Assembly (NCBI RefSeq): GCF_001425575.1
Contig: NZ_LMRD01000011.1
Span: 62,001-126,000, forward strand
From: Aurantimonas sp. Leaf443
GTDB taxonomy: Bacteria; Pseudomonadota; Alphaproteobacteria; Rhizobiales; Rhizobiaceae
Direction of reading: 5' to 3'
DNA: 64,000 nucleotides
Shown in pieces: positions 40,738 to 62,521 of this stretch. The notes beneath the pieces were generated by a model. That model searched no databases. It had not been told where the DNA came from and was given only the letters and a program-made list of their open reading frames with translations. The position numbers and the translations under genes were made by a program. Every line of letters begins with the position of its first letter. The first letter of the stretch is position 1.

Positions 40738-40804
40738 GGCGTTCGGGTCTCCAGGGGCAGTGCGTCCCAGCCGGGATCGAAGCAGGCCGGGGCGCGCGGC
40801 ATGC

Positions 40805-40820
40805 TCATCATACGAGATGG
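40805..40820. promoter_or_regulatory. Candidate GntR operator between regulator and RuBisCO-like gene
   Basis: TCATCATACGAGATGG contains CATC and GATG arms six bases apart. Positions 40804-40813 (CTCATCATAC) are identical to 31421-31430 upstream of the transporter operon, and the next AG is also shared. The spot is 67 bases from the regulator start and 48 from the RuBisCO-like start. Confidence 0.5.
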
Positions 40821-40867
40821 CATCGTGCGGCGGGAGAGCCGACGCCGTGCCGGGAGGGAGATTTAGG

Positions 40868-42142: not shown

Positions 42143-42153
42143 TGGAGACGACG

Positions 42154-46002: not shown

Positions 46003-47082
46003 ATGGCGACCATCCTCACCCTTTCCAACGTCTCCAAGTCCTTCGGCGGCAAGCCGGCGCTGGCGGGCATCGACCTCGCCATTCCCGCCGACGCCTATGT
46101 CTCGCTTCTGGGCGCGAGCGGGTCGGGCAAGACGACGCTGCTGCGGCTCATCGCCGGCTTCGAGGAGACCGAGACGGGCACGATCGCCTTCGAGGGACGG
46201 CGGCTGGACGGGCGCCCCGCCCACGAACGCGGCATCGGCTTCGTGTTCCAGAACTTCGCCCTGTTTCCCCATCTCAACGTGCGCGACAACGTCGCCTTCG
46301 GCCTTGCCCATCGCACGGTCGATCCCGTGCGCGACGAGCGGCAGCGCGCCGCCCGCGTCGCGGAGGCGATCGAGATGGTCGGCCTCAAGGGCCTCGAGCA
46401 GCGCTCCGTCACGCAGATCTCCGGCGGCCAGCGCCAGCGCGTCGCGCTCGCCCGCACGCTGGTGACGCGGCCGAAACTCGTCCTGCTCGACGAGCCGCTC
46501 GGCGCGCTCGACGCCCATCTGCGCGCCCGCATGCGCGACGAGCTGCGCCAGATCCGCCGCGATCTCGGCGTGACCTTCCTGCACGTGACCGGCTCGGAGA
46601 CCGAGGCGCTCGCCATGGGCGACCGGCTCGTCGTTCTCGACAAGGGCACGGTCGGCCAGTTCGCCGCGCCCGACGCCGTCTATGCCGAGCCCGCCTCGCC
46701 CGGCGTCGCGCGCTATCTGAACGCCTTCAACCTCCTGCCCGGCACGCTCGAGGCCGGCGCCTTCCGCACCACGGCGGGCCTCCTCTCCATGGACGCGGCG
46801 ACGCTGCGGCGCGGCCACGACGCGCCGGTCTACGCGGTGCGCCATGACGCGATCGACGTGCGACGGCCGGAAGCGGACGCCATGGCGGACGAGGCGAGCC
46901 TGCCGGCCCGCTTCCTCGCCAGCGAATATGGCGGAGCGTCCGTCCTCTCCTTCTTCGCCCTCGACGACGGCCGGATCGTGGAGGTGGAGGAACACTTGAG
47001 CCGCGGCGAGCCGCGCAGCCTTCAAGCCGACGCCCGCTACACGCTGGCCTGGAAACGCGCCGACGCGCTGGTCTTCGCGTGA
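46003..47082 (+). CDS. Polyamine-type ABC transporter ATP-binding protein (PotA-like, first copy)
   Basis: 359-residue ATPase of the spermidine/putrescine/opine class. Walker A is GASGSGKTT at about residues 37-45, signature ISGGQRQRVALARTL, Walker [13 protein letters not shown]. The switch reads HVTGSETEALAM, with Gly-Ser where His-Asp is usual, so the catalytic histidine is missing and ATP hydrolysis may be weak. A second ATPase with the normal histidine lies at 51803. The C-terminal TOBE domain is present. It is the first gene of the unit that continues into the two permeases. Confidence 0.88.
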   Translation: MATILTLSNVSKSFGGKPALAGIDLAIPADAYVSLLGASGSGKTTLLRLIAGFEETETGTIAFEGRRLDGRPAHERGIGFVFQNFALFPHLNVRDNVAFGLAHRTVDPVRDERQRAARVAEAIEMVGLKGLEQRSVTQISGGQRQRVALARTLVTRPKLVLLDEPLGALDAHLRARMRDELRQIRRDLGVTFLHVTGSETEALAMGDRLVVLDKGTVGQFAAPDAVYAEPASPGVARYLNAFNLLPGTLEAGAFRTTAGLLSMDAATLRRGHDAPVYAVRHDAIDVRRPEADAMADEASLPARFLASEYGGASVLSFFALDDGRIVEVEEHLSRGEPRSLQADARYTLAWKRADALVFA

Positions 47083-47093
47083 GGAAGCCCGAG

Positions 47094-48020
47094 ATGACGA
47101 CAGACACGCTCGCCCCCGCCCGCGGCGCCCACCCCGCCGAGGCCGGGCTCTCGCCCGCCGCCCTGCGCGAGGCCAAGCGCCGCCGCACCTCCTGGCTCCT
47201 GCTGGCGCCCGGCGTGGCCTGGATGCTGCTCTTCCTCGTCCTGCCGATGATCATGGTCGTCTACGTCTCCTTCTGGACGCAGACGACCTTCGCGGTGGAG
47301 CCCAAGCTCACCATCGCGAGCTGGGTGCGCTTCCTCACCAATGCCACCTATCTCGACGCGCTCTGGACGACGGTGCGCATCTGGCTGATCGTCCTCGTCT
47401 CGACGCTCGTCGTCGGCTACCCGGTCTCGCTCTTCATCGGGCTGATGCTGAAGTCGAAGACGCTGCAGACGGTGCTTCTCGTCCTCTGCGTCATCCCCTT
47501 CTGGACCTCGTTCCTCATCCGCGTGCTCGCCTGGCGGCCGATGCTCGGCACGCAAGGGGCGATCAACCTCATCCTGATGAATCTCGGCATCATCGACGAG
47601 CCGCTCGACGTGCTGCTCTTCTCCGAACTCTCGGTGATCATCGGCATGACGCAGATCTACTGCGTCTTCATGGTCGGCCCGATCACCTTCATGCTCGGCC
47701 GCATCGATCCGAACGTCATCGAGGCGGCGCGCGACCTCGGCGCCGGCTTCGGGCGCATCTTCCGCACCATCATCCTGCCGCTGTCGCTGCCGGGCGTGGT
47801 CGTCGGGGCAATCTTCGTCTCGGTCATGGTGCTGGGCGAGTTCGCCACCGCCGCCGCCCTCTCGGGCCGCAAGACCAACATGCTCGGCAACATCATCGTG
47901 AGCCAGGTCGGCTCCCTCAAATGGGCCTTCGCCGCCGTCGCCGGCTGCATCCTCACGCTCCTGATGGGCGCGGTGATCGCGGGGCTCCTGCGCGTCGTCA
48001 ACCTTCGCAACGAGCTTTGA
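47094..48020 (+). CDS. Polyamine-type ABC transporter permease (PotB-like)
   Basis: 308-residue inner-membrane permease. The ATG at 47094 is preferred because GAGGAA lies seven bases upstream; a GTG at 47079 overlaps the ATPase stop. A polar N-terminal tail leads into the first helix SWLLLAPGVAWMLLFLVLPM. The ATPase-contact loop is IEAARDLGAGFGRIFRTIILPLSLPG. FLIRVLAWRPMLGTQGAINLIL is typical of PotB homologues. Confidence 0.92.
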   Translation: MTTDTLAPARGAHPAEAGLSPAALREAKRRRTSWLLLAPGVAWMLLFLVLPMIMVVYVSFWTQTTFAVEPKLTIASWVRFLTNATYLDALWTTVRIWLIVLVSTLVVGYPVSLFIGLMLKSKTLQTVLLVLCVIPFWTSFLIRVLAWRPMLGTQGAINLILMNLGIIDEPLDVLLFSELSVIIGMTQIYCVFMVGPITFMLGRIDPNVIEAARDLGAGFGRIFRTIILPLSLPGVVVGAIFVSVMVLGEFATAAALSGRKTNMLGNIIVSQVGSLKWAFAAVAGCILTLLMGAVIAGLLRVVNLRNEL

Positions 48021-48030
48021 GGAGGCGAGG

Positions 48031-48873
48031 ATGCACACCGGAATCCTGAAGCCCGCGCTGGCGCTCTACACCGCGCTCTTCCTCGTCTTCCTCTACGGGC
48101 CCTTCGTGGTCCTCGCCATCCTGTCCTTCCAGGCGGGGCCGGAAGGCGGGCCGCAATTCCCGATCGTGGAATGGTCGACCTACTGGTATCGCCAGCTCTT
48201 CGGCCTCGTGCCCGCCACGCGCATCGCGCCTCTGCCGATCGCGGACGGCCTCCTGCGCTCCCTGACTCTCGCCTTCATGACGATGGTCGTCTCCACTCTC
48301 CTCGGCGTCGCCTCGGCGCAGGCCTTCCGCCAGCGCTTCACGGGTTCGGGCCCGGTCTTCTACCTCATCGTCCTCGGCATGATGGTGCCCGGCATCCTCG
48401 TCGGCCTCGGCATGGCGCTGTTCTCGAACCTCATCGGCGTCGACCGCACCTGGTGGGGCACCGCCTTCGTCCTCCACGTCGTCTACACCTATCCCTTCGC
48501 CTTCCTCGTCATGCTCGCGATCTTCAACCGCTTCGACCGCTCGATCGAGGAGGCCGCCTGGTCGCTCGGCGTCTCGCCGGTGACGACCTTCCGGAAGGTG
48601 ACCTTTCCGGTGATCTTCCCCGGCGTCCTCTCCGCCATGCTCTTCGCCTTCACCCTCTCCTACGACGAGTTCGCCCGCACGCTCTTCACCTCCGGCTCGC
48701 AGCTCACCCTGCCGCTGGCGATCTACGGAACCTTCTCGGTCGAGATCCATCCCAACGTCTTCGCCTTCGGCGTGTTGACGACCCTGTTCTCCTTCGCGCT
48801 CCTCGCGGTCTACGCCATCCTCATGGTGCAGTCGGTCAAGCGGGCGAAGCGCGTGCCGGTGGAGGCCGCGTGA
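48031..48873 (+). CDS. Polyamine-type ABC transporter permease (PotC-like)
   Basis: 280-residue permease, second channel half. Six helices are evident from LALYTALFLVFLYGPFVVLA onward, with the coupling loop IEEAAWSLGVSPVTTFRKVTFP. It follows PotB by ten bases and its stop overlaps the start of the SDR gene (TGATG at 48871-48875), so the transporter and the dehydrogenases are one transcription unit. Confidence 0.92.
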   Translation: MHTGILKPALALYTALFLVFLYGPFVVLAILSFQAGPEGGPQFPIVEWSTYWYRQLFGLVPATRIAPLPIADGLLRSLTLAFMTMVVSTLLGVASAQAFRQRFTGSGPVFYLIVLGMMVPGILVGLGMALFSNLIGVDRTWWGTAFVLHVVYTYPFAFLVMLAIFNRFDRSIEEAAWSLGVSPVTTFRKVTFPVIFPGVLSAMLFAFTLSYDEFARTLFTSGSQLTLPLAIYGTFSVEIHPNVFAFGVLTTLFSFALLAVYAILMVQSVKRAKRVPVEAA

Positions 48874-49616
48874 TGGCCGCCTTCCAAGGAACCGCCCTCG
48901 TCACGGGCGCGGCCTCGGGCATCGGCCTTGCCGTCGCCGAGCGGCTCGCCGCGGACGGGGCGAGCGTCGTGCTGGTCGATCTCGACGCGGAAAAGGCCGC
49001 GCTCGCCGCCGAGCGCCTGCGCGATACCGGCTACAAGGCCGTCCACGCGCAGGCAGACGTCGCGCAGGAGGCGAGCGTCTCGGCCGCCGTCGCTCTCGCG
49101 GTGGAGACGTTCGGGCCCGTCGAGCTCCTCGTCAACAATGCCGGCCACGTGCATCAGGCCCGTTTCGAGGATCTGGCGGTCGCCGACTTCGACCGGATGT
49201 TCGCCGTCCATGTGCGCGGCACCTTCCTGACGACCCGCGCCGTGCTGCCTTCCATGCTGGAGCGGGGCGCCGGCATCGTCGTCAACATGGCCTCGCAGCT
49301 CGGCCAGATTGGCGGCGTCGAGCTCACGCACTATTCGGCCGCCAAGGCCGCGATCATCGGGCTCACCAAGGCGCTGGCGCGCGAGGTGTCGGACCGGGGC
49401 GTGCGCGTCAACGCCGTCGCGCCGGGGCCGATCAACACGCCGCTCGTGCGGGCGCTCTCGCCGGACTGGCAGGCCGCCAAGCGCGCCGAACTGCCGCTCG
49501 GCGCCTTCGGCGAGCCGGAGGACGTGGCGGGCACCGTCGCCTTCCTCGCCTCGTCCGACGCCCGGATCTTCGTCGGCCAGACGCTCGGGCCCAATTCCGG
49601 CGACGTGATGCTGTGA
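48873..49616 (+). CDS. SDR-family oxidoreductase (first of two)
   Basis: 247-residue classical short-chain dehydrogenase. The cofactor motif TGAASGIGLAVAE is at residues 9-21, NNAG follows near 89, and the catalytic triad is in NMASQLG (Ser) and HYSAAK (Tyr, Lys). An Asp after the second strand (VLVDLDAEK) favours NAD over NADP. The active site is complete. Its role is to oxidise or reduce a hydroxyl or keto group in the pathway of the transported compound; the substrate cannot be told. Confidence 0.9.
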   Translation: MAAFQGTALVTGAASGIGLAVAERLAADGASVVLVDLDAEKAALAAERLRDTGYKAVHAQADVAQEASVSAAVALAVETFGPVELLVNNAGHVHQARFEDLAVADFDRMFAVHVRGTFLTTRAVLPSMLERGAGIVVNMASQLGQIGGVELTHYSAAKAAIIGLTKALAREVSDRGVRVNAVAPGPINTPLVRALSPDWQAAKRAELPLGAFGEPEDVAGTVAFLASSDARIFVGQTLGPNSGDVML

Positions 49617-49633
49617 CACAGAAGGACCCGATC

Positions 49634-50401
49634 ATGACGACCGACAAGCCCCGCATCGTCCTCGTCACCGGCGCCGGCATCGGCATCGGCCGCGCCACCG
49701 CCGAGGCCTTCGCGGCGGAAGGCGACCATGTCGTCGTCACCGACGTGCTGCGGGCCGAGGGACAGGAGACCGTGAAGGCCATTTCCGCCGCCGGCGGCTC
49801 GGCCGAGTTCCTTCCCCTCGACGTCACCTCCACGGCGGAGGCCGACGCGCTGGTGGCCGATGTCGAGGCCCGGCACGGGCGGCTCGACGTCATCGTCGCC
49901 AATGCCGGCATCGCCCACAAGGTGCCGCTCGTGGAGATGAGCGACGAGCGCTGGGACCACACGTTCGACGTCGATCTCAAGGGCATGCTGCGCGTCGTGC
50001 GCCCGGCGCTCGCGGGCATGCGCGCCCGCCGCTCGGGGGCGATCGTCTGCCTCTCCTCGATCATGGGCGTCGCCTATGGCTGGGACGAGCACGTGCACTA
50101 TTCCGCCGCCAAGGCCGGCGTCGTCGGGCTGGTGCGCGGCCTTGCCGTGGAGCTCGCCCGCGACGGCATCCGCGTGAACGGCGTGGCGCCCGGCTACATC
50201 CGCACCGCGCAGCTTCTCTCGGAGAAGAACTCGCTCGGGCCGGCGGGCGCCGAGAAGGCGGCCGAGTTCATCCCGATGGGGCGCCTCGGCGAGCCCGCCG
50301 ACATCGCCGACGTCATCGCCTTCCTCGCCTCGGATGCGGCCCGCTACCTCACGGGCCAGACCATCGCCGTCGACGGCGGCCTTCTCGTCGGCCGCTACTG
50401 A
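49634..50401 (+). CDS. SDR-family oxidoreductase (second of two)
   Basis: 255-residue classical SDR, start at 49634 with AAGGA seven bases upstream. The cofactor motif TGAGIGIGRATAE is at residues 12-24, the sequence ANAG replaces NNAG, and the triad is in CLSSIMG and HYSAAK. VVTDVLRAE suggests NAD use. It lies 17 bases after the first SDR and before the binding-protein gene. Two adjacent but different SDRs suggest two successive steps, or two stereochemistries, in one route. Confidence 0.9.
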   Translation: MTTDKPRIVLVTGAGIGIGRATAEAFAAEGDHVVVTDVLRAEGQETVKAISAAGGSAEFLPLDVTSTAEADALVADVEARHGRLDVIVANAGIAHKVPLVEMSDERWDHTFDVDLKGMLRVVRPALAGMRARRSGAIVCLSSIMGVAYGWDEHVHYSAAKAGVVGLVRGLAVELARDGIRVNGVAPGYIRTAQLLSEKNSLGPAGAEKAAEFIPMGRLGEPADIADVIAFLASDAARYLTGQTIAVDGGLLVGRY

Positions 50402-50468: not shown

Positions 50469-51701
50469 ATGATCCGCAAAGACCTCGACAGGCGCACCCT
50501 GCTGAAGGGCACCGCCGGCGCCATGGCCCTGGCGCTGGGCGGCGGCACGCCGTTCCTCTCCTCCACCCGCGCCTTCGCGCAGGCGGCCGACCTCTCCAAG
50601 CAGAGTCTTCGCACCACGGGTCTCTCGACCACGGTGCAGGAACGCATCCTCGCCGACTTCAAGACGGCGTCGGGCGTCGGCTCCACCTCGGGCACGGCCG
50701 CGACCTTCCCGGACGCGCAGACCAAGATCCTCTCCGGCTCCTCGGACTACGACTGCTGGGAGGTGATCGGCGAACGCCTGCCGGCCATCACCATGACCGA
50801 CCACGCCGCCCCGATCGCCGTCTCCGACGTGCCGAACTGGGCCGCCATCCGCGACACCTTCACCAAGCCCGACCCGAAATGGGACCGCTCGGCGCAGATC
50901 GTCGGCCAGATCTGGACCGACGAGAGCCAGACCAGCCTCTGGATGGTGCCGGCCGTCTACAACTACGATTCCATCGGCTACAATCCGGACGTCGTCTCCG
51001 ACGAGGAGGCCAACAGCTGGACGGCCCTGTTCGACCCGAAGTGGAAGGGCAAGTCCGGCCTCAACACCGACCCGCTCATCGCCATCGGCCAGGCCGTCCT
51101 CGCCATGAACTCGCTCGGTCTCCTGGAGGCCAAGAACCCCGGCAACCCGACCGCCGAGGAGATCGAGGAGGCCGGAAACTTCCTGATCTCCAAGAAGAAG
51201 GAAGGCCAGTTCCGCGCGCTCTGGGGCGATTTCGGCGAGCTGGTGAACCTCCTTGCCTCCGGCGAGATGGTGGTCTGCGACGCCTGGCAGCCGGCCGTGA
51301 TGGCGGTGAAGGCGCAGGGCAAGGCCTGCCGCTACGCCGTGCCGAAGGAAGGCTACCGCGCCTGGGCCATCGGACCTGCGATGATCAAGGGCACGCCGAA
51401 CGCGGCGGCGGTGGCCGCCTATGCCAATTACTGGCTGTCGGGCGAGCCGGGCATCACCGTCTCGGAACAGGGCTACTACTCGCCCTCGACCAATATCGAG
51501 AAGGCGATGGACCCGAAGAAATATGCCTTCTGGTACGAGGGCAAGCCCTGGGACATGGCGGAAGAGCGCGGCATCAAGCCGGGCGACCTGCGCGACGGCG
51601 GCTCGCTGGCCACCCGCGCCTCGAACGTCGCCTACTGGCACCAGTGGCCGGAAGAATACGACGCGCTCGTGCAGAAGTGGGACGAGTTCCTGAACGCCTG
51701 A
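50469..51701 (+). CDS. Polyamine-type ABC transporter substrate-binding protein (PotD-like)
   Basis: 410-residue periplasmic protein. The start at 50469 gives a twin-arginine-type signal ([11 protein letters not shown], hydrophobic helix, cleavage near AFAQA at residue 38). The mature part shows binding-protein features such as [26 protein letters not shown] and the ligand-side [11 protein letters not shown]. It is homologous over its C-terminal 90 residues to the signal-less protein at 55297 (shared LSGxPG, QGYY, DLRDGGS/SLRSGGS). A perfect 13-base hairpin follows. Confidence 0.9.
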
Positions 51702-51802: not shown

Positions 51803-52888
51803 ATGCACGATCTCGAACTCATCCAGGTGGGCAAGGTCTACGACGACGGCACGACGGCCGTCTCGAACTTCGACCTCGCGGTCGAGAAGGGCGAGTTCGT
51901 GGCCTTTCTCGGCCCGTCCGGCTGCGGCAAGACGACGACGCTGCGCATGATCGCCGGCTTCGAGACGATCACTTCCGGCGACATCCTCATCAAGGGCCGC
52001 AACGTCAGCAATCTCTCGGCCGAGCGCCGGCCGACCTCGATGATCTTCCAGAACTACGCGCTCTTCCCGCATATGGACGTGTGGAAGAACGTCGAATACG
52101 GCCTGAGCGTGAAGGGCGTCGGCGCACCCGAGCGCAAGCGGCGCGTGGGACAGATCCTCGAGAAGCTCGGCCTCACCGACATCGCCCATCACCGCGCCGA
52201 CCGGCTCTCGGGAGGGCAGCGCCAGCGCATCGCGCTCGCGCGCGGCCTCGTCGTGGAGCCGGACATCCTCCTTCTCGACGAGCCGCTCGGCGCGCTCGAC
52301 GCGAACCTGCGCCGCATCATCCAGAACGAGCTGAAGCTTCTGCAGAAGGAGCTCGGCATCACCTTCGTCTTCGTCACCCATGCCCAGTCCGAGGCGCTCG
52401 GCCTGTCGGACCGCGTCGTTGTGATGAGCAACGGGCGCGTCGAGCAGATCTCGGACCCGCGCGACCTCTACACGCGGCCGCAGACGCCCTTCGTCGCCGG
52501 CTTCATCGGGGCCAACACGATCTTCGAGGGCACGATCGCGCCCTGCGACAGGGCGGGTGCCGCCCGCATCGACACGCCGTTCGGCCCGATGGAGGGCGTC
52601 GGGCCGCGCGCCATCGCGCCCGGCGGCAAGGCGATCATCGCCATCCCGTCCGACGCGCTCGACGTCCATCCCGCCGGCTTCCCGGCCACGGGGCGCAACC
52701 GCGTCGAGGGTACGGTTCTGACGCGCGAGATCGTCGGCCATATCGGCACGCTGCGCGTCGCCCTGCCCGGTCGCCGGCCGGTGCAGGTCGAGTCCCATGT
52801 CGAGCGTTTCCGCGACCTCGAGGCCCGCGAGGGCGACACCGTCGTCCTCACCTGGGACCCCGCCCGCTCCACCGTCATCGCGGCCTGA
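51803..52888 (+). CDS. Polyamine-type ABC transporter ATP-binding protein (PotA-like, second copy)
   Basis: 361-residue ATPase with every motif intact: Walker [20 protein letters not shown], signature [15 protein letters not shown], Walker [13 protein letters not shown], and switch [12 protein letters not shown] with the histidine. The C-terminal TOBE domain ends near PARSTVIAA. The permease pair at 47094-48873 has no other partner nearby except the degenerate ATPase at 46003, so the two may form a heterodimer as in GlpS/GlpT. Confidence 0.93.
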
Positions 52889-52929: not shown

Positions 52930-53811
52930 ATGGCCAAGGAAATCCTCTGCGGATTCGGCATCGACGTCGACGCCGTCGCCGGCTGGCTCGGGTCCTATGG
53001 CGGCGAGGATTCGCCGGACGACATCTCGCGCGGCCTCTTCGCCGGCGAGGTCGGCAGCCCCCGCCTCCTCAAGCTCTTCAAGCGCCTGGACATCCAGACG
53101 ACCTGGTTCATCCCCGGCCACTCGATCGAGACCTTCCCCGACCAGATGAAGGCGGTCGCCGACGCCGGCCACGAGATCGGCATCCACGGCTACACCCACG
53201 AGAATCCGATCGCGATGACGCGCGAGCAGGAGACCGAGGTGCTCGACAAGTGCATCGACCTCGTCGAGACGCTCTCGGGCAAGCGCCCGACCGGCTACGT
53301 CGCGCCGTGGTGGGAATTCTCCAACGTCACCAACGAGCTGCTGCTGGAGCGCGGCATCAAGTACGACCACTCGCTGATGCATGACGACTTCACGCCCTAC
53401 TACGTGCGCGTCGGCGACAAGTGGACGAAGATCGACTACGCCGGCAAGCCCAAGGACTGGATGGTGCCGCTGACGCGCGGCCACGAGACCGATCTCATCG
53501 AGATCCCCGCCAACTGGTATCTCGACGACCTGCCGCCGATGATGTTCATCAAGAAGGCGCCCAACAGCCACGGCTTCGTGAACCCGCGCGACATTGAGCA
53601 GATGTGGCGCGACCAGTTCGACTGGGTCTATCGCGAGATGGACTATGCCGTCTTCCCCATCACCATCCATCCCGACGTGTCCGGGCGCCCGCAGGTGCTG
53701 CTCATGCTCGAGCGCCTGTTCGAGTACATGAAGGGCCACGAGGGCGTGCGCTTCGTGACGATGAACGAGATGGCGGACGACTTCGCCCGCCGCTCGCCGC
53801 GCAGGGCGTAG
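52930..53811 (+). CDS. Polysaccharide-deacetylase-fold amidohydrolase, probable cyclic imide hydrolase
   Basis: 293-residue cytoplasmic enzyme of the PuuE/allantoinase-like branch of carbohydrate esterase family 4. FGIDVDA near residue 10, [14 protein letters not shown] and [11 protein letters not shown] (HxxxH metal site in GYTHEN with upstream Asp) give the metal centre; [17 protein letters not shown] and [11 protein letters not shown] follow. There is no signal, and substrates of this branch are cyclic ureides or imides, not sugars. Size and motif layout recall bacterial imidases. AAGGGAG lies upstream of the start at 52930. A hydrolysed cyclic imide would give a half-amide, which the asparaginase homologue could process. 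Confidence 0.65.
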
Positions 53812-53871: not shown

Positions 53872-54198
53872 ATGTGTTCCCTCTGCGGCGTTCTCGGCGT
53901 CGACGATCACTGGAGCGACGCGGTCGCGCGGCCGGGCGTCTACTCGCGCAACGAGGAGCCGCGCGAGCGGCGGGCCGAGCGCACGCGACGCATCCGGGCG
54001 GCCAACGACGTGCTGCGCGCCTACCGCCTCTCGCTCGGCGACTGGCACGGTCGTGCCTATCTCCTCTCCACCGCCACCGGCAAGACGGAGGTGGTGGAGA
54101 ACCTCGCCCATCTCTGGCCCACCGCCGAGGCGCTGTCGGGCCGGCTCTTCGACCCGCTCGATCCCGACCTCCTCGCCCGGCTGGAGGCCGCCTCGTGA
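53872..54198 (+). CDS. Small conserved-looking protein with N-terminal CxxC, upstream of a COG0523 GTPase
   Basis: 108-residue soluble protein beginning MCSLCGVLG, where Cys2 and Cys5 form a CxxC pair. A basic helix follows (RERRAERTRRIRAAN, about residues 31-45), then a folded-looking C-terminal half. I do not recognise the family. The start overlaps nothing upstream, but its stop overlaps the GTPase start (GTGA at 54195), so the two are translated together. A metal-handling partner or client of the GTPase is a fair guess from the CxxC and the coupling. The MCG-like start is not that of a glutamine amidotransferase. Confidence 0.65.
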   Translation: MCSLCGVLGVDDHWSDAVARPGVYSRNEEPRERRAERTRRIRAANDVLRAYRLSLGDWHGRAYLLSTATGKTEVVENLAHLWPTAEALSGRLFDPLDPDLLARLEAAS

Positions 54199-55265
54199 GC
54201 ACGGCGCCGACCTTCACCCCCGTCCATCTCCTCACCGGCTTCCTCGGCTCGGGCAAGACGACGCTCCTGCGCTCCATCCTGCAGGACGAGGCGTTGAAAG
54301 GCGCGGCCGTCCTCATCAACGAGTTCGGCGAGGTCGGGCTCGACCATCACCTCATCGAGCGCATCGACGAGACGACGGTGCTCCTCCAGTCCGGCTGCCT
54401 CTGCTGCACGATCCGCGGGGAGCTCGCCGAGGCGATGCGCGACCTCCTGTCGAAGCGCGAGCGCGGGCTGGTGCCGGCCTTCGACCGGCTCGTCATCGAA
54501 TCGACCGGTCTCGCCGATCCCTTCCCGATCCTCTCCACGATCCGCGCCGACCCGGTGGTGAGCCACCATTTCACCGTCGCCGGCACCTGGGCGACGATCG
54601 ACGCGGTGAACGCGCCGGAGGGGATCGACCGCCGCGGGGAGATGCGCAAGCAGATCGCGAGCGCCGACCGCATCCTCCTCACCAAGACCGACCTCGTGGA
54701 CCGCCAGACCGCCGAGGCCCTCGCCGCCCGGCTCGCCCTCCTGAACCCGACCGCCGCGATCCGCGACGTGCGGGGCGACGACTGGGACGTCGCCTGGCTC
54801 CTGGCGGACACGCCCGTCGAGGCCGCAGACCCGGCGCCGCACGAGGCGCATCGGCATCACCGTCATGGCGCCGAGGGACACGGCCACCACGCCCATCACG
54901 GGCACGACCCGAACCGGCACGGAGACTCCATCGTCGCCTTCTCGATCGTGCCCGAACGCGCCGTCGACTGGACGCGCTTCGGCATCTGGTTGTCGATGCT
55001 GCTCAACCGCCATGGCGGTTCGATCCTGCGCGTGAAGGGCATTCTCGATCTCGAAGGCGAGACGCGGCCTGTCGCCGTCCACGGCGTGCAGCATCTCGTC
55101 CATCCGCCCACCCACATGGCGGCCTGGCCGAGCGAGGACCGGCGCTCGCGCCTCGTCTTCATCGTCGACGGGCTGGACCCCGAGCGCATCCGCCGCTCCT
55201 TCGAGGGCTTCGTCCTCGGCCCTTCGGCGAAGGCGGCCGGGCGCGGAAACGTCGAGGCGGCTTGA
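54195..55265 (+). CDS. COG0523 (CobW-like) GTP-binding metallochaperone
   Basis: 356-residue G3E-family GTPase. Walker A GFLGSGKT is at residues 15-22, the metal-binding CLCC at 68-71, ESTGLADP is the Walker B region and TKTDL gives guanine specificity. A His-rich loop (about residues 218-240, many HH pairs) suggests zinc or nickel handling, and the C-terminal CobW domain follows. It starts at GTG 54195 inside the stop of the 108-residue protein. Such proteins insert metal into neighbouring enzymes; the zinc-type amidohydrolase at 52930 is the obvious client, by inference. Confidence 0.88.
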   Translation: MSTAPTFTPVHLLTGFLGSGKTTLLRSILQDEALKGAAVLINEFGEVGLDHHLIERIDETTVLLQSGCLCCTIRGELAEAMRDLLSKRERGLVPAFDRLVIESTGLADPFPILSTIRADPVVSHHFTVAGTWATIDAVNAPEGIDRRGEMRKQIASADRILLTKTDLVDRQTAEALAARLALLNPTAAIRDVRGDDWDVAWLLADTPVEAADPAPHEAHRHHRHGAEGHGHHAHHGHDPNRHGDSIVAFSIVPERAVDWTRFGIWLSMLLNRHGGSILRVKGILDLEGETRPVAVHGVQHLVHPPTHMAAWPSEDRRSRLVFIVDGLDPERIRRSFEGFVLGPSAKAAGRGNVEAA

Positions 55266-55296: not shown

Positions 55297-56529
55297 ATGA
55301 ACGACCTGACCGTGAAATCCCGGCCCGCGCCGGCCCGCCTCGCCGCCCCGGCCGTGCAGACGGATCCGCGCCCGATGCTGCGCATCCTCGGCACCGAGAT
55401 CACGCTTCTGGAGGAGATCCGCGTCCAGGCGGAGGCCGATCTCGGCATCCGCATCGCCTTCGACTGCCGCAACTTCCAGGCGACCCAGCGCCATGCCGCC
55501 GGTTCGCCCGACGCGTTCGACATCTACGACCAGTGCTTCCACAATCTCGACATCGTCTGGTACTGGCGCGCCGTGCAGGCGATCGACACGGCGCGGATCG
55601 CGGCCTGGGGCGAGGTCAGCGAACTCACCAAGGAAGGCACGATCCGCCCCTCGGCGCGCGTCGGGCGCGGCGACGCGCCGGTGACGCGGCTCTACGTGCA
55701 GGCCGACGGCTCGCTCGGCTCGCGCGCCTCGCGCTTCATCTCGATGCTGCCGACGGTCCACAATTTCGACGCCTTCGCCTATGACGAGCGCGCCGTGGAC
55801 GGGCATCCCGAACGCGTCACCAGCTGGAAGGCGCTGTTCGATCCCGCCTTCCACGGCCGCGTGGCGCTGGTGGACGAGCCGGCCATCGGCATCTTCGACG
55901 CGGTGCTCGCGGCCGAAGCCGCCGGTCTCATGCGCTTCGCCGATTCCGGCAATCTCTCGGTGGAGGAGATCGACGCGCTGATCGATCTCCTCCTGACGAT
56001 GAAGGCGGACGGCCATTTCGCCGGCTTCTGGCAGACGGTGGACGATGCGACCGCCATGATGGCGGACCGGCGCATGGCGCTCGGCAGCATGTGGTCGCCC
56101 AGCATCGCCGCGCTCAAGCAGCGGCAGGTGCCCGTGCGACAGGCCGTCCCGGTCGAGGGCTACCGGGCCTGGCATGGCGGCCTGTCGCTCTCGGCGCGGC
56201 TGGAAGGGCGCCTTCTCGACGTCGCCTACGACTATCTCAACTGGTGGCTCTCCGGCTGGCCCGGCGCCGTGGTCGCGCGGCAGGGCTACTACATGTCCGT
56301 GCCCGAACGCATCCGGCCGCATCTGAGCGCGGCCGAATGGGACTACTGGTACGGCGGCATGCCCGCGGCGCGCGACCTGCCCGGCCCCGGCGGCAGGCCC
56401 TCCATCACGGCGGGCTCGCTGCGCTCGGGCGGCTCCTACTGGGACCGCGCGGCCAATATCGCGGTCTGGAACACGACGATGGACGAGCACAACTATCTCG
56501 TGCGCCGCTGGGTCGAGCTCGTCGGCTGA
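55297..56529 (+). CDS. Binding-protein homologue without a signal peptide
   Basis: 410-residue protein homologous to the polyamine-type binding protein at 50469: both end with an LSGxPG, QGYY, DYWYGG/FWYEGKP and SGGS-type series. Here the N terminus (MNDLTVKSRPAPARLAAPAV) is polar and proline-rich, with no hydrophobic helix within 40 residues, so export by Sec or Tat is not expected. ILGTEITLLEEIRVQAEADLG opens the conserved domain. An upstream start giving a signal is not available since the CobW gene ends 31 bases before. It may be a cytoplasmic ligand sensor or carrier; it could also be a start lost by mutation. Confidence 0.8.
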   Translation: MNDLTVKSRPAPARLAAPAVQTDPRPMLRILGTEITLLEEIRVQAEADLGIRIAFDCRNFQATQRHAAGSPDAFDIYDQCFHNLDIVWYWRAVQAIDTARIAAWGEVSELTKEGTIRPSARVGRGDAPVTRLYVQADGSLGSRASRFISMLPTVHNFDAFAYDERAVDGHPERVTSWKALFDPAFHGRVALVDEPAIGIFDAVLAAEAAGLMRFADSGNLSVEEIDALIDLLLTMKADGHFAGFWQTVDDATAMMADRRMALGSMWSPSIAALKQRQVPVRQAVPVEGYRAWHGGLSLSARLEGRLLDVAYDYLNWWLSGWPGAVVARQGYYMSVPERIRPHLSAAEWDYWYGGMPAARDLPGPGGRPSITAGSLRSGGSYWDRAANIAVWNTTMDEHNYLVRRWVELVG

Positions 56530-57127: not shown

Positions 57128-57853
57128 TCAGTCGAACCAGGGACGCAGCGCCTCGTTCACGGCACGGGCGAGTTCCACCGCGTTCGGCGTATCGGAATGG
57201 ACGCAGACGCAGTCCGCCCGCATCGCAAATTCCGTGCCGTCGATGGCGGTCGCGACGCCCTCTTCCATCACCCGCACGGCGCGCCGCGCCGCATCCGCCG
57301 GATCCTTGGCCTCGTGCTCGCGGGTGATGATGAGCCGCCCCTCGGCATCGTAGTCGAGATCGACGTAATATTCCGCCCGGAAGGGAAGCCCGCGCGCCGT
57401 ATAGACCTTCTCCTGGTTCGTGCCGGCCATGCCGAGCACGGGCACGCCGAAGGCCAGGGCGGCGTCGGCGATGGCCTCGGCCACCTCCTCGTTGCGCACC
57501 GCCGCGCCGTAGAGGGCGCCATGCGGCTTGATATGGTTGAGCGGCATGCCTTCGACGTCGAGAAAGGCCTTCAGCGCGCCGATCTGATAGAGAAGGCAGG
57601 CGGAGAGTTCGTCGCGACCCATCTTCATTTCGCGCCGGCCGAAGCCCTGCAGGTCGGGAAAGGACGGGTGCGCGCCGACGGCGACGCCCTGTGCCTTGGC
57701 CAGTGCCACCGTCTTGCGCATCACCACGGGGTCCGAGGCATGGAAGCCGCAGGCGACGTTGGCGATGTGGATGAGCGGCATCAGCCCCTCGTCGTCGCCG
57801 CAGCGATAGAGGCCGAAGCTCTCGCCCATGTCGCAGTTGATCTGAACGCCCAT
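57128..57853 (-). CDS. pxpA: 5-oxoprolinase subunit PxpA (LamB/YcsF family)
   Basis: 241-residue protein starting at 57853 after a GGGGAGA ribosome site. The family hallmarks are NCDMGESFG at residues 6-14, IANVACGFHASDP at about 37, and HIKPHGALY near 116. In PxpABC this subunit supplies the amidohydrolase that opens 5-oxoproline to glutamate with ATP. It is separated by a LysR gene from the pxpB/pxpC genes, which face the other way, together making a divergent locus. Alternative substrates among related lactams cannot be excluded. Confidence 0.9.
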   Translation of the reverse strand: MGVQINCDMGESFGLYRCGDDEGLMPLIHIANVACGFHASDPVVMRKTVALAKAQGVAVGAHPSFPDLQGFGRREMKMGRDELSACLLYQIGALKAFLDVEGMPLNHIKPHGALYGAAVRNEEVAEAIADAALAFGVPVLGMAGTNQEKVYTARGLPFRAEYYVDLDYDAEGRLIITREHEAKDPADAARRAVRVMEEGVATAIDGTEFAMRADCVCVHSDTPNAVELARAVNEALRPWFD

Positions 57854-57919
57854 CGTCGTCTCCCCGTGGCACAGTGCGCCTCGAAGGGTCGCCGCCGGGC
57901 GGCGGCAGGTCAAATGGGA

Positions 57920-58885
57920 TTAACTGGCGGGCGCCATCGACAAAATCGATGACGCAGCCGCGCGCTCCTCGGCACGGTGGTTGCCGACGCCGGTCAGGGC
58001 GAAGCGCAGGAAGTCGCGGAAGGCCTCGGCGGCGGGCGTCAGAGCCGCGCCGCGCATCCAGGCGAGGCCGACATCCATGGTCGGGATCTCCTCCTCCAGA
58101 AGCCGCGTCTCGATGCGCTGGCCCTCGAGCGACCAGGGCCGGTAGACCATGTCGGACAGGACGGTGACGCCCATGCCGCCCGCCACCATGGAGCGCACGG
58201 CCTCGACGGAGGAGGTGCGGAAGACGACGTCCGGCTCGATGCCCGCGCTCGTCCAGTACCGCAGCGCCGTCGCCCGCGCCTCGTCGACGGTGAGCATGAC
58301 GTAAGGGTGGCGGGCGACGTCGGCGAGACCGACGCGGTCGAGCTTGGACAGCGCGTGGCCGGGCGCCATCCACAGGCGGCGGCGAGAGCGCGTGAGCGTC
58401 TCGAAGCCGATGGGACCGCCGGGATCGACATTCGACACGAGAAGCACGGCGATATCGAGCGCGCCGTCGCGCAGCGCCTGCTCGACGACGGTGCGCGGTG
58501 CCTCGAAGAGCTCGAGTTCGACGGCGGGAAAGCTCGCCGAAAAGCGCACGAGGTGGCGCGGCAGGAAATAGCCGGCGACCGTGTAGGTGACGCCGACGCG
58601 CAGCGGGCCCGCGACCTCGCGCGGCGCGACGCGCGAATGGCGCGTGGCCTCGGCGACGGCCATCAGGATATCGCGCGCCTGCTGCAGGAACCGCCCGCCC
58701 TCGAGCGTCACCGACACGCCGAGCGCGGTGCGGTCGAGCAGGCGGAACCCGAGCGCGCCCTCCAGCTGCTGGATCGCCGCGGTGACGGCCGATTGCGAGA
58801 CGTTCAGCTCCACGGCCGCCTGCCCGATGCGCCCGGCTTCGGCCGCGGCCACGAAATAGCGCATCTGCTTCAGCGAGACGGACAC
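57920..58885 (-). CDS. LysR-family transcriptional regulator
   Basis: 321-residue regulator. The N-terminal helix-turn-helix is at about residues 8-40 (FVAAAEAGRIGQAAVELNVSQSAVTAAIQQLE), and the remainder is a periplasmic-binding-protein-like sensor. It lies between pxpA (67 bases downstream on its strand) and the divergent biotin carrier gene, so it is placed to control both sides. Its start is 140 bases from the biotin carrier start. ATCGGTTTTTCAGAT at 58921-58935 has the ATC-N9-GAT form of a LysR site. Confidence 0.88.
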   Translation of the reverse strand: MSVSLKQMRYFVAAAEAGRIGQAAVELNVSQSAVTAAIQQLEGALGFRLLDRTALGVSVTLEGGRFLQQARDILMAVAEATRHSRVAPREVAGPLRVGVTYTVAGYFLPRHLVRFSASFPAVELELFEAPRTVVEQALRDGALDIAVLLVSNVDPGGPIGFETLTRSRRRLWMAPGHALSKLDRVGLADVARHPYVMLTVDEARATALRYWTSAGIEPDVVFRTSSVEAVRSMVAGGMGVTVLSDMVYRPWSLEGQRIETRLLEEEIPTMDVGLAWMRGAALTPAAEAFRDFLRFALTGVGNHRAEERAAASSILSMAPAS

Positions 58886-58920
58886 GTCTGCTCCTCATTC
58901 GGCCCCGGACGCGCGACCTT

Positions 58921-58935
58921 ATCGGTTTTTCAGAT
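58921..58935. promoter_or_regulatory. Possible LysR-type binding site
   Basis: ATCGGTTTTTCAGAT shows the ATC-N9-GAT symmetry common in LysR sites and lies between the divergent LysR and biotin carrier genes. One site, weak palindrome, position-based call. Confidence 0.3.
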
Positions 58936-59025
58936 GGGGTGAATTCCTATTTGCGATTTTACACGCCGCCCCGGCTTTGCAAGTCTTTCGCCACGGTTCG
59001 CAACCATTGCGTAGGAGTGCTCCCG

Positions 59026-59268
59026 ATGTCGGTCGTCACGATCATGGCCCCCCTTCCCGGCACGTTCTACCGCTCGCCCTCGCCCGGCGAACCGGTCTTC
59101 AAGACCGAGGGAGACACGGTGGCGGTCGGCGACACGATCGGCCTCATCGAGGTGATGAAGAGCTTCACCCCCGTCGTCGCCGAGACGGCCGGGACGCTGA
59201 CCGCCTTCCATGTCGAGAACGAGGACGCCGTCATGGCCGGCCAGCCGCTCTACGATCTCGACGCCTGA
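59026..59268 (+). CDS. Biotin carboxyl carrier protein (single-domain)
   Basis: 80-residue biotinyl domain. Lys45 in IEVMKSF is the biotinylation lysine, and the flanking sequence GDTIGLIE and ENEDAVMAGQPLYDLDA completes the fold. It is far shorter than a typical AccB, lacking the N-terminal linker, as in urea carboxylase-like and PxpBC-associated carriers. GGAG precedes the ATG at 59026. It lies three bases before the biotin carboxylase gene. Confidence 0.92.
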   Translation: MSVVTIMAPLPGTFYRSPSPGEPVFKTEGDTVAVGDTIGLIEVMKSFTPVVAETAGTLTAFHVENEDAVMAGQPLYDLDA

Positions 59269-59271
59269 ACG

Positions 59272-60660
59272 ATGGCGATCCGCAAGCTCTTCGTCGCCAA
59301 TCGCGGCGAGATCGCGGTGCGCATCATCCGCGCCGCAAAGGATCTCGGCATCGCGACCGTGCAGGCCGTCAGCGCCGCGGACCGGGATATGCTGGCCGCG
59401 CGCCTCGCCGACGAGACGGTCGAGGTCGGACCCGCCCATGCCTCGAAATCCTATCTGAACGTCGAGTCGATGCTGCGGGCCGCGCTTTCCACCGGCTGCG
59501 ACGCGGTCCATCCCGGCTACGGCTTCCTCTCCGAGAACGCCGCCTTCGCCGAGGCGGTGGAGACGGCGGGGCTGATCTTCGTCGGTCCGAAGGCCGAGAC
59601 GATCCGCGCCATGGGCGACAAGGCCAAAGCGCGGGAGATCGCCGAAGGCGCCGGCGTGCCCGTCGTGCCCGGCAGCCAGGGCGTGATCGCGACGCTGGAC
59701 GAGGCGGTGGGCGAGGCCTCGCGCATCGGCTACCCGGTGATGATCAAGGCCGCGGCCGGCGGCGGCGGGCGCGGCATCCGCGTGGCCGAGGACGAGGCGG
59801 CGCTGCGCGCCCAGTTCGGCGCGGCGAGCGCGGAGGCCAAGGCCGCCTTCGGCGACGGCGGGCTCTATCTCGAACGTTTCATCGCGCGCGCCCGGCATGT
59901 CGAAGTGCAGATCATGGGCGACGGAACGAACGTCGTGCATTTCTTCGAGCGCGAATGCTCGCTGCAGCGGCGGCGCCAGAAGATCTGGGAGGAGGCGCCG
60001 GCCGCCTGCCTCGATGCCGAGACGCGCCGCTCGCTCTGCGACTCGGCCGTGGCGCTCGCCCGGAGCGTCTCCTATCGCGGCGCCGGAACGCTCGAATATC
60101 TCTACGACGAGACGCGCGGCGACTTCCATTTCATCGAGATGAACACGCGCATCCAGGTCGAGCATCCGGTGACCGAGATGATCACCGGCTTCGACCTCGT
60201 GCGCGAGATGATCCGCATCGCCGGCGGCCAAGCCCTCTCGGTGCGCCAGGAGGACATCGTCCTGCGCGGCCATGCGATCGAGGTGCGCATCAACGCCGAG
60301 GATCCGGCGCTGGACTTCCGGCCCTCGCCCGGCACCGCGAGCGGCCTCGCCCTGCCCGGCGGCATGGGCGTGCGCTTCGACACGATGCTCTACGAGGGCT
60401 ACGCGATCCCGCCCTTCTACGATTCCCTCGTCGGCAAGCTGATCGTCTGGGACGACACGCGCCAGGGCGCCATCGCGCGCCTTCGCCGTGCGCTGGGCGA
60501 GCTGCGCATCGAGGGCATCGCCACCACCGCGCCGCTGCACATGGCGCTCGCGCGCGAGCCCGACATCCTGGCCGGGCGGTTCCACACGCGCTGGCTCGAG
60601 GAGCGCGCGCTCCCGAGCCTTCAGGCGCCGGCCCTTCCCACGACGGAGACCGCGAGATGA
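59272..60660 (+). CDS. Biotin carboxylase (AccC-like)
   Basis: 462-residue ATP-grasp enzyme that carboxylates biotin using bicarbonate. RKLFVANRGEIAVRIIRA opens the N-terminal domain, VIKAAAGGGGRGIR is the glycine-rich ATP loop near residue 160, and MNTRIQVEHPVTE holds the active-site residues. A housekeeping AccC should exist elsewhere, since this copy sits with pxpB/C and a minimal carrier and overlaps the pxpB start (ATGA at 60657). Length is normal. Confidence 0.94.
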   Translation: MAIRKLFVANRGEIAVRIIRAAKDLGIATVQAVSAADRDMLAARLADETVEVGPAHASKSYLNVESMLRAALSTGCDAVHPGYGFLSENAAFAEAVETAGLIFVGPKAETIRAMGDKAKAREIAEGAGVPVVPGSQGVIATLDEAVGEASRIGYPVMIKAAAGGGGRGIRVAEDEAALRAQFGAASAEAKAAFGDGGLYLERFIARARHVEVQIMGDGTNVVHFFERECSLQRRRQKIWEEAPAACLDAETRRSLCDSAVALARSVSYRGAGTLEYLYDETRGDFHFIEMNTRIQVEHPVTEMITGFDLVREMIRIAGGQALSVRQEDIVLRGHAIEVRINAEDPALDFRPSPGTASGLALPGGMGVRFDTMLYEGYAIPPFYDSLVGKLIVWDDTRQGAIARLRRALGELRIEGIATTAPLHMALAREPDILAGRFHTRWLEERALPSLQAPALPTTETAR

Positions 60661-61526
60661 CGATGCGATATTCCTTCGGCGGCGACGAGCACATCTTCGT
60701 GGAAGTGAACGAGGAGATGTCCCTCCCGGCCTTCTTCAAGAGCCTGTCGATGACCAACGCGGTGCGCGAGAGCGCCATTCGCGGCGTCACCGAGATCTGC
60801 CCCTCCAACGCCTCGTTCCAGATCAAGTTCGATCCGGACGTGATCGCGCCGGACGACCTGATGGCGGAGCTGAAGAGCTTCGAGAGCGGCGCGCAGACGA
60901 CCGACACGGTGATCTCCACCCGCGTCATCGAGGTGCCCGTCCTCTACGACGACCCCTGGACGCGCGAGACGCTGATGCGCTTTCGCGAGCGCCACCAGGA
61001 TCCGGGCGGCACCGATCTCGACTATGCCGCGCGCATCAACGGGTTCGACGACGTGGAGGCCTTCATCGCCGCCCATTCGGGCGCGCCGTGGTTCGTCTCC
61101 ATGGTCGGCTTCGTGGCGGGCCTGCCCTTCATGTACCAGATGGTCGAGCGCAAGCGGCAGATCGAGGTGCCGAAATATCTTCGGCCCCGCACCGACACGC
61201 CGCGCCTCACCGTCGGCCACGGCGGCTGCTTCGGCTGCATCTACTCGGTGCGCGGGGCCGGCGGCTACCAGATGTTCGGCATCACGCCGATGCCGATCTA
61301 CGACCCCGCCCAGCGCATCAGCTATCTGCGCGACTTCATGATCCTCTTCCGCCCGGGCGACATCGTACAGTTCCGCCGCGTCGACCGCGAGGGCTACGAC
61401 GCCGCCGTGGAGGCGGTGGACGGCGGGCGTTTCGAGCCGGTCATCCGCGACGTCCGCTTCTCCCTTGCCGATTTCCTCGCCGATCCGGACGGCACCAATG
61501 CCTCGCTCCTGAAGGTTCAGCCATGA
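60657..61526 (+). CDS. pxpB: Carboxyltransferase-domain protein subunit B (PxpB, AHS1)
   Basis: 289-residue cytoplasmic subunit of the urea amidolyase/carboxyltransferase-like AHS1 class. It opens MTMRYSFGGDEHIFVEVNE, and holds FMYQMVER and PRLTVGHGGCFGCIYSV, with GCFG-type and AGGYQMFG motifs that I associate with the family. In E. coli such proteins pair with PxpC and PxpA as 5-oxoprolinase; with a carboxylase and carrier upstream it may act as a true biotin-dependent carboxyltransferase. It overlaps pxpC by four bases. Confidence 0.88.
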   Translation: MTMRYSFGGDEHIFVEVNEEMSLPAFFKSLSMTNAVRESAIRGVTEICPSNASFQIKFDPDVIAPDDLMAELKSFESGAQTTDTVISTRVIEVPVLYDDPWTRETLMRFRERHQDPGGTDLDYAARINGFDDVEAFIAAHSGAPWFVSMVGFVAGLPFMYQMVERKRQIEVPKYLRPRTDTPRLTVGHGGCFGCIYSVRGAGGYQMFGITPMPIYDPAQRISYLRDFMILFRPGDIVQFRRVDREGYDAAVEAVDGGRFEPVIRDVRFSLADFLADPDGTNASLLKVQP

Positions 61527-62521
61527 GCGCCGCACACGACTACGCCCTCGAAATCCTGAAGCCCGGCCTGTCGACGCAGGTGCAGGATCTCGGGCGGCCC
61601 GGCTACTACCATCTCGGCATCCCGATCTCCGGCGCGATGGACCGCCACGCGCTCGTCGCCGCCAACCGGCTCGTCGGCAACGAGCCGGGCGCGGCGGCGC
61701 TGGAAGCGGTGTTCATGGGGCCGGAGATCCGGTTCGAGCGCGACGCGAGCGTGGCGGTGACGGGCGCGACCATGCCGCCGAAGGTGGACGGCGTCGAGCA
61801 GCCCGGCTGGACGGCGTTTTCCGTCAAGGCGGGCCAGGTCCTCTCCTTCGGCTATCTCAAGGCCGGCGCGCGCGCCTATATCGCGATCTCCGGCGGCGTG
61901 GACGTGCCGCTCGTCCTCGGCTCGCGCTCGACCTACGCGCTGGGCGCGCTCGGCGGCTTCGAGGGACGGCCGTTGAAGGCCGGCGACAGACTCTCGCTCG
62001 GCGTGCCGTCCGGTGCGGCGCGCGAGGGCGCGAGCGTGCCGGGCGATCTCCGCCGCCTGCCGGGTTCGCCGCCCACCCTGCGCGTGCTGCCCGGCCTCTA
62101 CTGGCACCGCATCACGGAAGGCTCGCAGGCGCGCTTCTTCGAGGACGAGTGGAAGGTGGCGCCCGAGGCGGACCGCATCGGCTACCGGTTCCGCGGCGGG
62201 CGCAAGCTGGAGTTCGAGCCGCGCGAGCAGCCGTTCGGCGCGGGCTCGGACCCGTCCAACATCGTCGACAGCTGCTACCCCTACGGCTCGATCCAGGTGC
62301 CGGGCGGCACGGAGCCGATCGTGCTCCACCGCGACGCGGTCTCGGGCGGCGGCTACTTCATGCTCGGCACGGTGATCTCGGCCGACATGGACCTGATCGG
62401 CCAGTTGCAGCCGCATCAGGCGGTGCGCTTCGAGGCGGTGACCATGGACGAAGCGCTCGCCGCGCGGCGCGAGGCCCGGCGCCTCGCCGACGGGATCGCC
62501 GAAGCTCTGAACCAGCGCTGA
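61523..62521 (+). CDS. pxpC: Carboxyltransferase-domain protein subunit C (PxpC, AHS2)
   Basis: 332-residue AHS2-class subunit, partner of PxpB. Conserved segments include LSTQVQDLGRPGYYHLG near residue 20, SGAMDRHALVAANRLVGN, and ISGGVDVPLVLGSRST at about 122. It ends the operon. Whether the complex is 5-oxoprolinase or a lactam/amide carboxylase depends on the biotin proteins upstream; I cannot decide. No clear terminator follows; a convergent gene starts 44 bases later. Confidence 0.9.
   Translation: MSAAHDYALEILKPGLSTQVQDLGRPGYYHLGIPISGAMDRHALVAANRLVGNEPGAAALEAVFMGPEIRFERDASVAVTGATMPPKVDGVEQPGWTAFSVKAGQVLSFGYLKAGARAYIAISGGVDVPLVLGSRSTYALGALGGFEGRPLKAGDRLSLGVPSGAAREGASVPGDLRRLPGSPPTLRVLPGLYWHRITEGSQARFFEDEWKVAPEADRIGYRFRGGRKLEFEPREQPFGAGSDPSNIVDSCYPYGSIQVPGGTEPIVLHRDAVSGGGYFMLGTVISADMDLIGQLQPHQAVRFEAVTMDEALAARREARRLADGIAEALNQR

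Follow-up and report, generated by a model that had tools for sequence, protein, structure and literature searches.

A conserved substrate-binding protein homologue without an export signal in an ABC transporter locus of Aurantimonas sp. Leaf443, and its possible role in ligand sensing

The window, i.e. the whole stretch of 64,000 nucleotides that was analysed, carries an operon that encodes a PotA/PotB/PotC-like transporter and ends with the gene of a signal-less protein of substrate-binding protein (SBP) fold, hereafter called SBPc. The operon encodes in order ABC ATPase 1, two permeases, two dehydrogenases, SBP1, ABC ATPase 2, an imidase, a small protein X, a CobW-family GTPase and SBPc. 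A GntR regulator gene is divergent from the operon and lies about 9.8 kb from SBPc. The genes and the features of SBPc are as follows:

44527 to 45546, minus strand: GntR regulator; it has two winged-helix domains and, at the C terminus, an FCD-like part with a broken metal site
46003 to 47082, plus strand: ABC ATPase 1 (PotA-like)
47094 to 48020, plus strand: permease 1 (PotB-like)
48031 to 48873, plus strand: permease 2 (PotC-like), named by position and homologues rather than by a family match
48873 to 49616, plus strand: short-chain dehydrogenase 1
49634 to 50401, plus strand: short-chain dehydrogenase 2
50469 to 51701, plus strand: SBP1, the Tat-exported SBP of the transporter (RRTLLKG leader; SBP_bac_8, 2e-13)
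51803 to 52888, plus strand: ABC ATPase 2 (PotA-like)
52930 to 53811, plus strand: predicted imidase, a polysaccharide-deacetylase-fold hydrolase of the HP0310 / cyclic-imide-hydrolase kind (match to HP0310, 3qbu)
53872 to 54198, plus strand: small protein X (P0002), 108 aa, between imidase and CobW, conserved in the loci
54195 to 55265, plus strand: CobW-family GTPase (Pfam cobW 1.5e-45, CobW_C 5e-24)
55297 to 56529, plus strand: SBPc (P0001), signal-less SBP-fold protein, ATG start, 410 aa (Pfam SBP_bac_8 and SBP_bac_6; AF2 model)
55297 to 55374, plus strand: SBPc residues 1-26, a short polar N terminus where exported relatives carry a Tat leader
55525 to 55572, plus strand: SBPc residues 77-92, YDQCFHNLDIVWYWRA, an N-lobe motif that includes C80 and H82 and is fixed only in the signal-less clade (conservation windows)
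56041 to 56073, plus strand: SBPc residues 249-259, the eroded equivalent of the PotD segment D212-E222 that docks on PotB/PotC (PotD alignment, column counts)

The SBP1 leader matches the Pfam TAT_signal model with an E value of 0.011, below Pfam's cut-off, and no Pfam or NCBIfam match was found for small protein X. The operon encodes two different PotA-like ATPases and one permease pair; the two ATPases perhaps form a heterodimer.

SBPc matches the Pfam families SBP_bac_8 (1e-10, 42.3 bits for a cut-off of 27) and SBP_bac_6 (2e-5). The preliminary description of this DNA viewed it as a paralogue sharing its C-terminal half with SBP1, the protein encoded at 50469. A similarity was indeed found there, BLASTP aligning residues 150-409 of SBPc with residues 159-408 of SBP1 (36% identity over 261 columns, E 7e-45). 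However, this match is confined to the C-terminal half because pairwise BLAST is limited: the whole two-lobed SBP fold is covered by the AF2 model and by a profile that combines sequences of the clade with those of its exported relatives, and the tree described below assigns SBPc to a different exported lineage. A third relative encoded by the same genome shows 33% identity to SBPc over residues 17-409 and carries a Tat leader.

Residues 1-26 of SBPc are polar or Pro/Ala-rich. The CobW ORF stops at 55265, leaving a gap of 31 nt before the ATG of SBPc, and no in-frame ATG, GTG or TTG is found within the 70 residues upstream. This agrees with the earlier view that the upstream gene leaves no room for a signal. 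Furthermore, the lack of an export signal is not particular to this gene. A leader was scored as an RR motif plus a hydrophobic 12-mer, starting from the farthest in-frame start within 60 codons. Both were present in 0/92 signal-less loci (at most 89 distinct ones, three contigs, recognised by their equal lengths, being counted twice: L004/L070, L005/L049 and L006/L120) versus 45/48 exported relatives. The possibility that orthologues have a signal peptide that SBPc had lost was thus checked, and none of the clade loci carries a Tat-type leader. A start-codon error, a frame error or a local loss of the signal in SBPc was rejected, since the leader is missing throughout the clade.

The sampling behind these counts combines several searches. 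SBPc found a match at E <= 1e-20 in 64 of 151 genomes of the family. A leader is missing from the ten best matches besides the window (about 42-64% identity); the 19 weaker full-length loci read (about 35-38% identity) all have a Tat leader. The named set comprises the best 80 of 486 relatives obtained from one scan, and a class-wide search of 385 genomes added 29 loci, a dozen weaker matches being left out. The signal-less clade belongs mainly to Hyphomicrobiales. In the part of the literature on cytoplasmic SBPs and "pre-PotD" that was covered, no description of this clade was found.

A quick maximum-likelihood tree of 80 rows, restricted to the mature part and with SH-aLRT support, groups the 27 signal-less rows (27/27) in one clade with a support of 100, and the leader state changes only once. 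The tree program flags long branches, among them L013 and L124. On this tree, the loss of the leader is a single ancestral event in the signal-less clade. SBP1 belongs to a separate clade, far from SBPc, and therefore SBPc is not a tandem copy of SBP1. A tandem duplication of the 50469 gene was thus rejected on the basis of this quick tree, in which SH-aLRT is the sole measure of support and some long branches are flagged. Judging from the same tree, SBPc is a descendant of another exported lineage, one that adjoins cyclic-amide/imide hydrolases as the SBPc locus does.

The SBPc gene is under purifying selection. The dN/dS values of 12 close pairs range from 0.024 to 0.169, which is low although 11 of these pairs exceed the SBP1 value, and the frames are open in the loci read. 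SBPc evolves faster than SBP1, the identity to the window's proteins across loci being about 60% for SBPc vs 78% for SBP1. This higher rate is what one would expect if SBPc were the decaying remnant of an SBP that had lost its leader. Such decay is hard to reconcile with these dN/dS values, the open frames, a newly fixed motif (see below) and a single old loss, and we give it next to no credit. Export of SBPc after all, as a second uptake SBP that would travel with a Tat partner or use another route, could be suspected from its homology to SBPs and its linkage to permeases. The complete lack of Tat-type leaders in the 92 loci, also when the most distant start within 60 codons is taken, and the erosion of the docking segment make it very improbable.

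The AF2 model obtained with an alignment of 81 sequences corresponds to a complete two-lobed SBP, with a pLDDT of 92.6 (66.1 with the 11 signal-less sequences alone). Since the 81-sequence alignment includes exported relatives, the fold of the model is partly informed by them. The best structural match is YdcS (Z 34.2, 326 residues, 2.5 A), followed by VcPotD1 and E. coli PotD (Z about 31, 30.6 for PotD) and by PotF (about 30). The structural matching covers SBPc residues 22-410 and the rows shown are binding proteins. The profile alignment used to map residues on PotD begins downstream of the first helix of PotD and leaves W34, E36 and Y37 outside. PotD W229, W255 and Y293 correspond to W266, W292 and Y332 of SBPc, an aromatic cage that is invariant in 92/92 signal-less loci. 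In the same alignment, D168 of PotD corresponds to E194, E171 to G198 and D257 to G294. A polyamine is therefore an unlikely ligand of SBPc and was disfavoured as a candidate, the acids E171 and D257 of PotD being replaced by G198 and G294.

In windows of 11 residues, the largest excess of conservation in the signal-less clade vs the exported lineages is found at residues 77-92. H82 is present in 92/92 signal-less loci and C80 and E194 in 90/92 each, W replacing C80 in the two others. C80, H82 and E194 are absent at those columns in the 48 Tat-exported relatives and in 16 SBP1 sequences, SBP1 having D at 194 and E at 82. C80 aligns with S83 of PotD and H82 with Y85, two positions that presumably touch spermidine. 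Residues that are fixed in the signal-less clade and differ in its exported relatives would fit a new catalytic site, and SBPc might be an enzyme of PBP fold whose pocket (C80, H82, E194 and their neighbours) is the active site for a pathway intermediate. MqnA, MqnD and THI5 are cytoplasmic enzymes of this kind. However, SBPc retains both the aromatic cage and the complete fold of a binding protein, C80 is replaced by W in 2 of the 92 signal-less loci, no cofactor or catalytic motif was recognised and the structural rows shown are those of binding proteins. We consider an enzymatic function unlikely. None of the Pfam or NCBIfam matches of SBPc up to E 1 belongs to the MqnA, MqnD or THI5 families, and structural matches to binding proteins are compatible with an enzyme of this fold too.

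In contrast to the cage, the segment that would contact the permeases is eroded. According to section 7 of PMC11414716, PotD D212-E222 is sandwiched between PotB and PotC, and the PotD mutant E220A/G221A/E222A binds PotABC weakly. In the equivalent segment of SBPc (residues 249-259), V252, G258 and E259 are found in 48/48 Tat-exported relatives and 16/16 SBP1, N253 in 45/48 and 16/16, and S257 in 47/48 and 16/16, and all five positions are scattered in the 92 signal-less loci. In a sliding-window test, this segment ranks 15 out of 374, the top windows being the loop 160-178, which shows length changes. Sixteen of the 65 positions conserved in both exported lineages are replaced in the signal-less clade. 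As the equivalent count is 24/70 for SBP1 and 5/61 for the Tat-exported relatives, this total alone is no evidence, and only the location of the replacements in the docking segment was used. An aromatic cage that is kept and a docking segment that is eroded fit a sensor or a carrier better than an uptake subunit. Compared with the SBP_bac_8 / PotD-PotF kind, SBPc has the fold, the profile match and the permease and ATPase neighbours but neither the export leader nor a conserved docking segment. That SBPc is probably cytoplasmic, conserved and no longer a subunit of transport is much better supported by these comparisons than any mechanism.

The genetic context of SBPc is largely conserved. Counting only ORFs that match the named proteins, SBP1 and permease 2 are present in the stretch in 75/80 named loci, imidase, X and CobW in 76/80, and CobW lies directly upstream of SBPc in 77/80. 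The exceptions L043, L071 and L083 are located on short contigs. In L065, SBPc and the transporter are present, and imidase, X and CobW are missing from the stretch. The Methylocapsa locus L068 has neither SBP1 nor permeases in the stretch, SBP1 being on another contig, and keeps GntR, an amidase, imidase, X, CobW and SBPc as one group. An open SBPc gene is also found on a Rhizobium plasmid (L099:10001-11197) without transporter, SBP1 or GntR. The proposal that a signal-less protein is encoded beside the transporter thus holds with few exceptions, and the protein is conserved and under selection. GntR is visible in 31/80 named loci, always divergent from ATPase 1. The stretches may stop short of GntR, as was the case for L033 and L034, where it was found farther out (L161, L162). 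Five loci (L037-L041, layout B) have another order: SBPc comes first, followed by GntR and then by ATPase 1 to ATPase 2. In all five, the stop codon of SBPc overlaps the start codon of GntR as ATGA. In the genome of L037, imidase, X and CobW are found after ATPase 2 (L180). The order of genes seen in the window also occurs in Rhizobium johnstonii 3841 (L067).

Co-occurrence was counted in two genome draws of one class (151 genomes of the family and 385 of the class). SBP1 (E <= 1e-80) is found in 11/151 family genomes, a set identical to that of the SBPc genomes, and in 2/385 class genomes (G246 and the genome of the window); no other genome of that draw has a signal-less SBPc in the loci read. 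The same 11 family genomes exceed 400 bits with the GntR profile; 16 others pass E 1e-30 with at most 235 bits. The imidase is found in 20/151 family genomes, including 10 of the 11 SBPc genomes (not G121). Two other genomes deviate: G536, which carries L099, has SBPc without an SBP1 orthologue and no GntR match at E <= 1e-20, and the MAG G539 (L043, 2.6 Mb) lacks the SBP1 orthologue and has GntR. The association of SBPc and SBP1, together in 12/12 genomes that have either in the two draws, and an operon that encodes two ATPases and one permease pair would suit a modulator of the transporter: SBPc would sense the internal substrate and inhibit the PotA-like ATPases or the permeases (trans-inhibition). 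SBPc is nevertheless found away from the transporter (L068) or without SBP1 (L099) and both ATPases already have regulatory TOBE domains, so that we regard this role as quite unlikely.

The other genes of the locus provide indications on the ligand. The imidase is homologous over its full length to HP0310 of H. pylori (3qbu; E 1.7e-160, residues 1-292), and by this homology the 52930 gene is predicted to encode a cyclic imide hydrolase of the HP0310 kind. HP0310 is described as inactive on the substrates tried and as lacking a signal peptide in PMC3084791. PMC9304392 assigns the fungal imidase HxnM and a P. putida imidase to the HP0310 group and proposes that HxnM opens 3-hydroxypiperidine-2,6-dione. 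Furthermore, six loci (L174-L179) were picked because the imidase and a Tat-exported relative of SBPc share a contig; in these, imidase and X (and CobW in five of the six) adjoin the permeases of the exported relative. A seventh locus of this SBP (L182) has no imidase in the stretch. The sister exported lineage is located near a dihydropyrimidinase (TIGR02033, above cut-off) in two loci scanned. In G121, the SBPc genome that misses the imidase, an amidase and HyuA/HyuB-like genes were recognised by eye. Considering the imidase, dihydropyrimidinase and HyuA/HyuB contexts, a cyclic amide, an imide or a hydantoin is therefore our best guess of the ligand class that we infer for SBPc.

The region L181:3551-7419 of G121 was also seen by eye to carry HyuA/HyuB-like, amidase and nitrilase-like genes beside the same transporter. 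Small protein X, which starts with MCSLCGVLG, recurs with the imidase both here and in the independent locus type L174-L179. It is possibly a metal-insertion helper for the imidase.

Such neighbours could also suggest a carrier or a buffer: SBPc would take the imported compound from the transporter to the imidase or the dehydrogenases, or would protect the cell from it. The catabolic neighbours (imidase, X and CobW in 76 of the 80 named loci), a pocket that is kept while docking is lost, and exported kin that adjoin cyclic-amide hydrolases are all compatible with this role. However, SBPc persists with the transporter in L065, where the stretch contains no imidase, X or CobW gene, and a small soluble metabolite is not known to require a soluble carrier. 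This role appears improbable to us.

The regulator of the locus differs from the FCD (FadR-type) kind, which has one winged helix and a three-histidine site: it has two winged-helix stretches followed by an FCD-like part. The metal site of FCD domains consists of three histidines, namely His134, His174 and His196 in TM0439, according to PMC6608401. Twelve of 14 GntR orthologues have another residue in place of the first FCD histidine, and L042 and L165 alone have the complete set of three. As these two loci also carry SBPc, a broken FCD site is no requirement for SBPc. A metal may also be dispensable for some FCD domains. The effector site of GntR is damaged and the regulator is encoded with SBPc, even translationally coupled to it in layout B, which suggests that SBPc supplies ligand sensing.

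We therefore tentatively favour, as somewhat short of probable, the reading that SBPc is a detached cytoplasmic ligand sensor for the GntR regulator of the locus. The computed support consists of a full SBP fold, one loss of the leader, purifying selection, a cage that is kept, an eroded docking segment, the N-lobe motif and co-occurrence. The ligand would be a cyclic amide or imide, or a close product, that is taken up and opened by the locus. SBPc would close on it inside the cell and might then contact the tandem-winged-helix GntR by the new face of its N-lobe and modulate it, in one direction or the other. It would thereby replace the effector site lost from the FCD-like domain, and the uptake and catabolism genes would respond to the internal level of the ligand, much as ligand-loaded PotD is reported to act on its operon, except that a protein would here be dedicated to this task. 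L068, where GntR stays in one group with SBPc and SBP1 lies on another contig, speaks for this reading. The divergent GntR gene about 9.8 kb from SBPc in the window, L099 with its SBPc but neither GntR nor SBP1, and the altered residues C80, H82 and E194 speak against it. The signal-less type has an older origin and a wider distribution than one gene alone, and this mechanism is plausible. A more specific version is possible but rather doubtful: a split one-component regulator, in which an SBP withdrawn once from the periplasm has lost docking and is now the sensing subunit of a GntR with a dead effector domain. If this version is true, a single protein fold recognises one class of nutrient outside as well as inside the membrane.

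PotD offers a precedent for the sensor reading. Antognoni is said to have described PotD as a repressor of potABCD in 1999. The spermidine-PotD complex is stated to inhibit potABCD transcription in PMC4951125. As in the role proposed for SBPc, a protein of SBP fold would act, ligand-bound, on the transcription of the operon of its own transporter. However, PotD also serves transport, whereas SBPc is separate, permanently signal-less and encoded beside GntR. SBPc shares its fold and its aromatic cage with PotD, PotF and YdcS but differs from them by the lack of a leader, by G198 and G294 in place of the PotD acids and by the eroded docking segment. Its Tat-exported relatives (L125-L133, L174-L179) are full-length homologues, about 31-44% identical and located in dihydropyrimidinase or imidase loci. 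Unlike SBPc, they have the leader and are, in the stretches read, the only SBP of these families beside the permease pair. MqnA, MqnD and THI5 also use the PBP fold in the cytoplasm, but no sequence or annotation match to them was found for SBPc in Pfam or NCBIfam.

SBPs serve as markers of uptake, and by family models SBPc would be labelled an ABC transporter substrate-binding protein. Here, a whole clade appears to have made a binding protein cytoplasmic. The signature of the switch would be a leader that is gone, a docking segment that is eroded, an N-lobe motif that is fixed and a pocket cage that is kept. Hence, the clade may offer a clean system for the change of a Venus-flytrap protein from transport to sensing or catalysis, and SBPc joins the transporter, the regulator and the imidase-X-CobW cassette into one testable pathway.

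Other genes of the window were noticed beside the operon. Positions 57128-62521 carry a PxpA-type (LamB/YcsF) gene, biotin-carboxylase/5-oxoprolinase-like genes recognised by eye and a LysR-like regulator gene. These neighbours again point to cyclic-amide chemistry, and similar genes are found near SBPc in L040 and L041. On the other side, a gene for a RuBisCO-like protein and, after it, one for a DUF1537 protein (four-carbon acid sugar kinase-like) were recognised by eye at about 40454-43488 on the plus strand, a pair that we take to resemble an isoapionate-type pathway.
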